Source: Halobacteriales archaeon QS_4_62_28
GTDB taxonomy: Archaea; Halobacteriota; Halobacteria; Halobacteriales; Haloarculaceae
Direction of reading: 5' to 3'
Assembly (NCBI GenBank): GCA_003021685.1
Contig: PXRO01000004.1
Coordinates: 1 to 64,000, forward strand
Length of the DNA: 64,000 nucleotides
Below the pieces are notes generated by a model. It searched no databases, was not told the DNA's origin, and was given only the letters and a program-made list of their open reading frames with translations. This document shows, in pieces, positions 11,134 through 51,809 of this stretch (within the stretch, counting starts at the first letter, position 1; the number at the start of each line of letters is the position of its first letter). A program made the translations under genes and the position numbers.

Positions 11134-11161
11134 TACGTGCTCTTACGACGCCACGGGCTTA

Positions 11162-11245
11162 TATACCGGTGGACGTATGCACTGATACATTCAGCCCGGG
11201 GACTGTGACGGCTGAGACGTATCAAACGGTACGTCCACCGGTATA
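11162..11245. repeat. Palindromic intergenic element family B, copy B1 (84 bp)
   Basis: Perfect 16-bp TIR TATACCGGTGGACGTA...TACGTCCACCGGTATA with inner dyads TGATAC/GTATCA and CAGCC/GGCTG. Confidence 0.92.
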
Positions 11246-11316
11246 GTGTTCGGTAGCCAGTTTCACGTGGCGGTACCGTGAAGAACATCTGAGCGGCCGC
11301 CGGCCCTCGCGATTGC

Positions 11317-13025: not shown

Positions 13026-13098
13026 AGTCCATTGGGGTAGTGGCCAATCCTGAAGCCTTCTGGGGGCTTCGACCCTGGTTCGAATCCAGGATGGACTA
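13026..13098 (+). tRNA. tRNA-Gln (anticodon CTG)
   Basis: Acceptor AGTCCAT/ATGGACT, anticodon arm AAGCC-TTCTGGG-GGCTT (CTG), T arm CCTGGTTCGAATCCAGG. Confidence 0.93.
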
Positions 13099-13198
13099 TT
13101 TTTGCGGCGAGCACATCCGCGAGCCGCAAAATCGTCGATGGAGTGGATTCGAGCCCCGGAAGTCGCAGCGCGAACGGAGTGAGCGACCGTCTTCCTCC

Positions 13199-13220
13199 GG
13201 TTCGAATCCAGGATGGACTA
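13199..13220 (+). repeat. 22-bp direct repeat of the tRNA-Gln 3' end
   Basis: GGTTCGAATCCAGGATGGACTA identical to tRNA positions 13077-13098, 122 bp downstream. Confidence 0.9.
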
Positions 13221-13286
13221 CTAAAAATTCTTACATAATCCACAGGGTACTACTCAGATAAGCAACCGTGCCGAATACATCGGAGA

Positions 13287-13458
13287 CACCGAAAGCCCTC
13301 GCGGCGCTCGCCCTTCCATCCACCAGGTATCGGCTGGTTCACCGACCGAATCCTGGCGGATGAAAGGGCGAGTGCAGTTGCGGGAACCCGGACCCCGCAA
13401 GCACCTACTGGAGCGCAGCGTGGGTCCCGGGACCGCAACTGCACAAGGGCTTTCGGTG
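13287..13458. ncRNA. Candidate structured ncRNA with nested helices (unassigned family, strand unresolved)
   Basis: P1 CACCGAAAGCCCT/AGGGCTTTCGGTG closes two arms: CTCGCCCTT/AAGGGCGAG with inner CCAGG/CCTGG, and GTGCAGTTGCGG/CCGCAACTGCAC with inner CCCGGACCC/GGGTCCCGGG. Confidence 0.5.
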
Positions 13459-13549
13459 CCCTGTAAGCGTATCTCTTGGTCTCTTCTCTGAACACTGCTT
13501 GCCGCCTGTGGCGAAATTTTATATGAACAGACGCTCAATTGTCCAGCCA

Positions 13550-15595: not shown

Positions 15596-15678
15596 ATACC
15601 GGTGGACGGAAGCACTGATACAGTCAGCCCGGGGACAGTGACGGCTGAGACGTATCAAACGGTACGTCCACCGGTATA
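15596..15678. repeat. Palindromic intergenic element family B, copy B2
   Basis: ATACCGGTGGACGGA...AGCACTGATACAGTCAGCCCGGGGACAGTGACGGCTGAGACGTATCAAACGGTACGTCCACCGGTATA; near-identical to B1, same orientation. Confidence 0.92.
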
Positions 15679-47374: not shown

Positions 47375-47456
47375 TATACCGGTGGACGTAACGTTTGATA
47401 CTTCTCAGCCGTCACAGTCCCGGCTGAATATATCATTGCTTACGTCCACCGGTATA
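47375..47456. repeat. Palindromic intergenic element family B, copy B3 (82 bp, opposite orientation to B1/B2)
   Basis: TATACCGGTGGACGTAACGTTTGATACTTCTCAGCCGTCACAGTCCCGGCTGAATATATCATTGCTTACGTCCACCGGTATA. Confidence 0.92.
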
Positions 47457-51725: not shown

Positions 51726-51809
51726 TATACCGGTGGACGTACCGTTTGATACGTCTCAGCCGTCACGGTCCCCGGGCTGACTGTATCAGTGCGTACGTCC
51801 ACCGGTATA
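51726..51809. repeat. Palindromic intergenic element family B, copy B4 (84 bp, same orientation as B3)
   Basis: TATACCGGTGGACGTACCGTTTGATACGTCTCAGCCGTCACGGTCCCCGGGCTGACTGTATCAGTGCGTACGTCCACCGGTATA; a few mismatches from the reverse complement of B1. Confidence 0.93.

Follow-up and report, generated by a model that had tools for sequence, protein, structure and literature searches.

A candidate structured RNA beside a haloarchaeal tRNA-Gln gene is probably the cloverleaf interior of a gene-less mobile repeat with IS6-type ends

A 172-nt segment (13287-13458) downstream of a tRNA-Gln gene in Halobacteriales archaeon QS_4_62_28 was put forward in a first-pass annotation as a novel structured RNA, which raises the question of whether its fold marks an RNA gene of this locus or something else. 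We addressed this question in the window, meaning the whole 64,000-nt stretch of DNA that was analyzed (contig PXRO01000004.1, positions 1 to 64,000), and in copies from the same and other genomes. The fold itself was borne out. The + strand of 13287-13458 reached -116.8 kcal/mol versus -66.4 for shuffles (z -10.9), the - strand reached -130.0 kcal/mol (z -14.1), and no shuffle matched the real folding energy on either strand. On both strands, a 13-bp helix closed a three-way junction with the two long nested arms that had been described. The surroundings had also been read correctly: tRNA-Gln(CTG) was placed upstream, at 13026-13098, and no convincing protein ORF covers the segment, whose listed frames resemble the spurious ones that GC-rich DNA commonly produces. 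An Rfam scan gave no family at gathering score for 13287-13458; only tRNAs reached that score in the window and its surroundings, and relaxed thresholds returned only tRNA-Gln and, at 13287-13458, microRNA-like hairpins far below cut-off. Archaeal SRP RNA (RF01857) is also a long GC-rich structured haloarchaeal molecule, but it is a separate gene elsewhere in the genome and 13287-13458 does not match it. The tRNA-Gln at 13026-13098 was itself missed by the whole-window Rfam scan, yet scored 49.5 bits (cut-off 29) in a small-region scan; fast filters can drop real tRNAs in this way.

What did not survive was the idea of an RNA gene belonging to the tRNA-Gln locus. When 13250-13500 was used as the query, its own genome returned 98 matching pieces at ∼40 places, many at contig ends, and similar matches were present in 68 of the 151 genomes searched (own genome and relatives); phage records gave no match. 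When ∼30 copies were aligned, they shared sharp borders marked by terminal inverted repeats, and because the copies end at these borders, the repeat unit is 13246-13499 (254 bp), larger than the reported 172 nt, which form its interior. The locus instead holds one copy of a mobile DNA repeat that is dispersed through the genome, has terminal inverted repeats and, in other copies, is flanked by 8-bp duplications. Three congeners have no copy at their tRNA-Gln locus, where the downstream content differs as well. Several draft contigs begin or end inside copies, so the family probably accounts for assembly breaks. Complete copies span ∼220-410 bp, contain no transposase gene, and are too short to encode one. 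We conclude, with a probability of roughly 85%, that 13287-13458 is the interior of a gene-less MITE with IS6-type ends and a DNA cloverleaf inside, presumably served by an IS6-group transposase in trans. The window copy is laid out as follows.

13246-13499, + strand (oriented by its ends): whole mobile repeat, 254 bp; borders common to ∼30 copies and flanked, in other copies, by 8-bp target duplications.
13246-13261, + strand: left terminal inverted repeat, GGTACTACTCAGATAA (family consensus GGTACTGTTCAxATAAGC); from the copy alignment, and resembling the termini of 697-bp IS6-group elements.
13287-13301, + strand: closing helix, 5' side, with junction word GAAAGCCCTCG at 13291-13301; from the fold and module layout.
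13302-13306, + strand: arm X remnant, from the module order in 21 copies; presumably lost rather than never present.
13307-13372, + strand: central arm A, CTCGCCCTTCCATCCACCAGG ... CCTGGCGGATGAAAGGGCGAG; from the fold and module layout, with the half-arm motif in 53/300 Halobacteria genomes.
13373-13443, - strand: arm Y, hairpin type T1, with its internal loop (T versus TTC, - strand) at 13432 and 13384-13386; from 31 aligned T1 arms and their pair counts, positioned by module layout.
13444-13458, + strand: closing helix, 3' side, GGGCTTTCGGTG; from the fold and module layout.
13482-13499, - strand: right terminal inverted repeat, reading AGCAGTGTTCAGAGAAGA inward; from the copy alignment and duplication borders.

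Across the ∼30 aligned copies, the left end reads GGTACTGTTCAxATAAGCAACCGTGCCGAATACATCGGAGACACCGAAAGCCCTCG and the right end reads ...CGAGGGCTTTCGGTGCTTTGTAAGCGTTTCTCTCGATCTCTTCTCTGAACACTGC(C/T); the window copy matches the IS6-type ends imperfectly (GGTACTACTCAG). Flanking 8-bp duplications at ≥7/8 identity were found in 9 of 21 complete copies, compared with a chance level, from 2000 trials of shuffled pairing, of 0.14 on average and 2 at most. In L039, the duplication TGTCCGGT is visible in the alignment, and automatic trimming mis-set the left end of this copy in the 21-copy count. The window copy (13246-13499) has no recognizable target duplication, which we take as decay or later rearrangement; with arm X lost as well, it would be a decayed member of the family. 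Another copy, L049, splits an 84-bp repeat elsewhere in the genome, with CACGGTCC on both sides of the inserted element. Intact 84-bp repeats, four of them in the window, run continuous across this insertion site and represent empty sites within the genome; two of them, aligned at the site, have a single CACGGTCC or CACAGTCC. The ends, the 8-bp duplications, and this one empty site indicate that the repeat has moved as DNA. Joined-flank queries at five junctions (L053 not included) found no clean empty site in a congener, the intergenic regions having diverged too far.

The ∼84-bp sequence split by L049 is a dispersed repeat in its own right, with inverted ends (TATACCGGTGGACGTAC ... GTACGTCCACCGGTATA) and at least 10 copies in the genome, including these in the window.

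11158-11250, - strand: ∼84-bp repeat.
15596-15678, - strand: ∼84-bp repeat.
47375-47456, + strand: ∼84-bp repeat.
51726-51809, + strand: ∼84-bp repeat.

The ends also point to a candidate enzyme. They are closely similar to those of 697-bp elements in relatives, which contain PF13610 transposase genes, terminate in sequences such as GGTAGTGTTCAGATAAGC and GGCGGTGTTCAGATAAGG, and are flanked by perfect 8-bp duplications (L089, L090, L093, L095). Excerpts of two published accounts give the archaeal IS6 group ISH14, ISH29, and ISHarch12 lengths of 696-698 bp and 8-bp duplications (PMC6807381; PMC7986276), and because both properties agree, the 697-bp elements of relatives fit this group. Insertion sequences of this type have the GGTAGTGTTCAGATAAGC / GGCGGTGTTCAGATAAGG ends and the 8-bp target duplication in common with the repeat, whereas they encode a transposase and the repeat interior is non-coding and unrelated. 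At 56 loci in relatives and distant genomes, IS6-type ends lay near the central half-arm on the left in 19, on the right in 19, and on both sides in 13; control intervals gave 0, 1, and 0, respectively. The own assembly (∼90% complete) contains a single degraded PF13610 gene, with a GGTAGTGTTCAAA end, and no intact transposase source for the repeat was seen there. Judging from the ends, an IS6-group transposase probably moves the repeat in trans: the enzyme of ∼697-bp, ISH14/ISH29-like elements would act on the repeat ends and insert the repeat with an 8-bp duplication. We also considered a neighboring transposase or TnpB gene, as in the omega-RNA idea, and rejected it; by inspection, the ORFs beside 16 distant copies include no common transposase.

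Between these ends, the interior follows the plan of a modular cloverleaf consisting of a closing stem, arm X, central arm A, and arm Y. The order in complete own-genome copies is left end, GAAAGCCCTCG, arm X, CTCGCCCTTTCATCC(G/A)CCAGG, and loop, continuing after the loop with CCTGG(C/T)GGATGAAAGGGCGAG, arm Y, CGAGGGCTTTC, and right end; some own-genome copies are without one or more of the cloverleaf parts. Many other copies have arm X as a full hairpin, roughly 75-80 nt long or longer, and the window copy appears as a three-way junction because its arm X is reduced to five bases. A few hairpin types (T1, T2, and T3) supply arms X and Y, and there are extra hairpins T5 and T6. By approximate motif matching over 21 copies, in which single assignments are rough, T1 was on the left and T2 on the right in L043, L044, L065, L067, L069, and L070, and T2 was on the left and T1 on the right in L039, L047, L053, L056, L057, L061, and L063. 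Within the same 21 copies, the whole interior occurs in either orientation between the fixed ends. It may have been exchanged and inverted among copies, most simply if the inverted closing repeats recombined or allowed template switching from one to the other.

Alignment of 31 T1 arms allowed us to ask how the pairing has evolved. In this alignment, pairing holds in 95.4% of cells, two-sided changes occur at 16 of 27 pairs, and the covariation score is 0.284, compared with ≤0.063 when partners were slid. The internal loop, an unpaired T opposite TTC, is invariant, although 10 of the 12 pairs in the adjoining outer helix changed on both sides. One-sided G-U intermediates are rare except in one apical column. 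Because the changes are two-sided and the covariation score is high, the pairing in the T1 arm matters or is actively copied. The first-pass annotation had named a repetitive GC-rich segment as the outcome that would undo its proposal, and this was half right; the segment is repetitive, but its pairing is under constraint or active upkeep. Base pairing could be kept because selection acts on a single strand in its folded form, or because one arm of a palindrome is copied from the other. The T1 covariation fits RNA and DNA alike, since compensatory changes are also expected of a DNA palindrome.

The structured-RNA proposal therefore stood in part, as regards the non-random multi-helix fold, the compensatory changes across genomes, and the absence from Rfam, and fell as regards an RNA gene of the tRNA locus. 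A functional structured RNA could nonetheless be made from the interior of each copy, with the mobile element as its vehicle. The strong fold, the compensatory changes around the invariant internal loop, and arms that are widespread, with the architecture recurring within different shells, are all consistent with this. The fold is strong on both strands, though, where a functional RNA would be expected to favor one: over 21 copies, the better-folding strand was + in 10 and - in 11, and single mismatches within helices were G.T in 15 cases and A.C in 11. No strand bias that would point to RNA thus emerged, and this test is weak because the SRP RNA of the same genome, our control, likewise showed no strand difference. 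Transcription from a promoter in the ends would be strand-inconsistent, given an interior found in both orientations, and G-U intermediates are few outside the apical column; we consider a functional RNA unlikely. Quasi-palindromes are known to be self-correcting, and the inverted repeats may instead be a by-product, palindromes that correct themselves by template switching or hairpin repair in replication and fold without function. Mostly two-sided changes with few one-sided intermediates, together with the strand symmetry of the 21 copies, argue for this reading. An unpaired T/TTC loop that stayed invariant in 31 arms beside an extensively changed helix argues against it, as do arms and junction words common to different families, and we place it just short of even odds.

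The position of the window copy suggested one further role, that of a transcription terminator or insulator for the interval between tRNA-Gln and the arsenite methyltransferase gene. The repeat does sit between the two, its end ∼50 bp ahead of the arsenite methyltransferase start codon, and strong hairpins can influence transcription. By inspection, a TATA-like box lies at 13517-13523, between the repeat and this gene, so the gene need not be transcribed through the repeat, which is located upstream of its promoter. The absence from the tRNA-Gln locus in three congeners speaks against such a role. Over 19 copies, we also found no preferred arrangement or orientation relative to flanking genes, judged by codon-position GC, and we rejected the terminator idea as highly improbable.

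The repeat family extends well beyond this genome. A 22-base motif from the central half-arm was found in 53 of 300 Halobacteria genomes, with up to 60 occurrences in one, while its reversed control had no match in the 300; named hosts include Halapricum, Haloarcula, and Halorussus, and weak plasmid matches also name Haloferax and Natrinema. In the congeners G006 and G007, 12 of 20 sampled copies had all parts of the cloverleaf, but the central arm was larger and the outer ends were different. Because the same architecture lies between different ends there, the IS6-type ends are not constant across the whole family. Arms and junction words are common to the different families. We tentatively suggest, while thinking it rather less probable than not, that the cloverleaf core is an old, independent, structured haloarchaeal unit that acts when a single strand of DNA or RNA is folded, with constant junctions, exchangeable arms, and an invariant loop. 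Such a core would have been taken up by at least two mobile shells, IS6-type in the window lineage and another in G006/G007, and a protein able to copy, flip, or exchange its folded arms would recognize them. The long cloverleaf repeats of G006 and G007 (L155-L174) have a central arm of ∼150-310 bp, occur in both orientations, and have outer ends unlike IS6. In G020 (L175, L178-L182), several copies have a partial direct duplicate (GACAGCAAGCGCTGAAAGCCCTCGACCCGCTCGC) upstream of the arm, ahead of the full one.

An IS6-type MITE is an already known kind of element. The IS6 family in ISfinder includes MITEs, among them MITEHarch3 (excerpts of PMC6807381), and excerpts of PMC7986276 list two IS6 MITEs, 227 and 336 bp long. 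By their descriptions, as distinct from their sequences, the IS6-family MITEs seen in these excerpts, including MITEHarch3, resemble the present repeat in being gene-less, in their IS6-type ends, in a halophilic archaeal host, and in a length range like the ∼220-410 bp found here; the same excerpts mention no cloverleaf, arm exchange, or invertible interior. The PATEs and SMRs of Haloquadratum walsbyi (PMC3119063) are likewise haloarchaeal mobile repeats that are short, contain palindromes, and have no transposase. However, PATEs are without terminal inverted repeats and both PATEs and SMRs are without target duplications, whereas the family of 13246-13499 has terminal inverted repeats and 8-bp target duplications, which rules out its identity as a PATE. 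Literature searches with sequence strings gave chance matches only; PMC4666352 (E. coli triplex motifs) is unrelated. In the searchable literature, which leaves subscription papers and ISfinder outside, we found no MITE family with exchangeable covarying arms, a two-orientation interior, and at least two outer shells. That a striking "novel RNA" signal was explained as mobile DNA calls for care in searching GC-rich archaea for RNAs by structure, and a haloarchaeal repeat family this widespread (53/300 genomes by one 22-base motif) proves to have modular, invertible, covarying hairpins. If these hairpins are recognized as folded strands, they would give gene-less elements a new means of diversification.

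A separate feature lies on the tRNA side of the locus. Directly after tRNA-Gln, 13099-13221 is a 123-bp unit whose final part repeats the tRNA 3' end, and it is possibly an element targeting tRNA 3' ends or an att remnant. The congener G004 has this unit in tandem, with a period of ∼123 bp, and similar stretches occur elsewhere.
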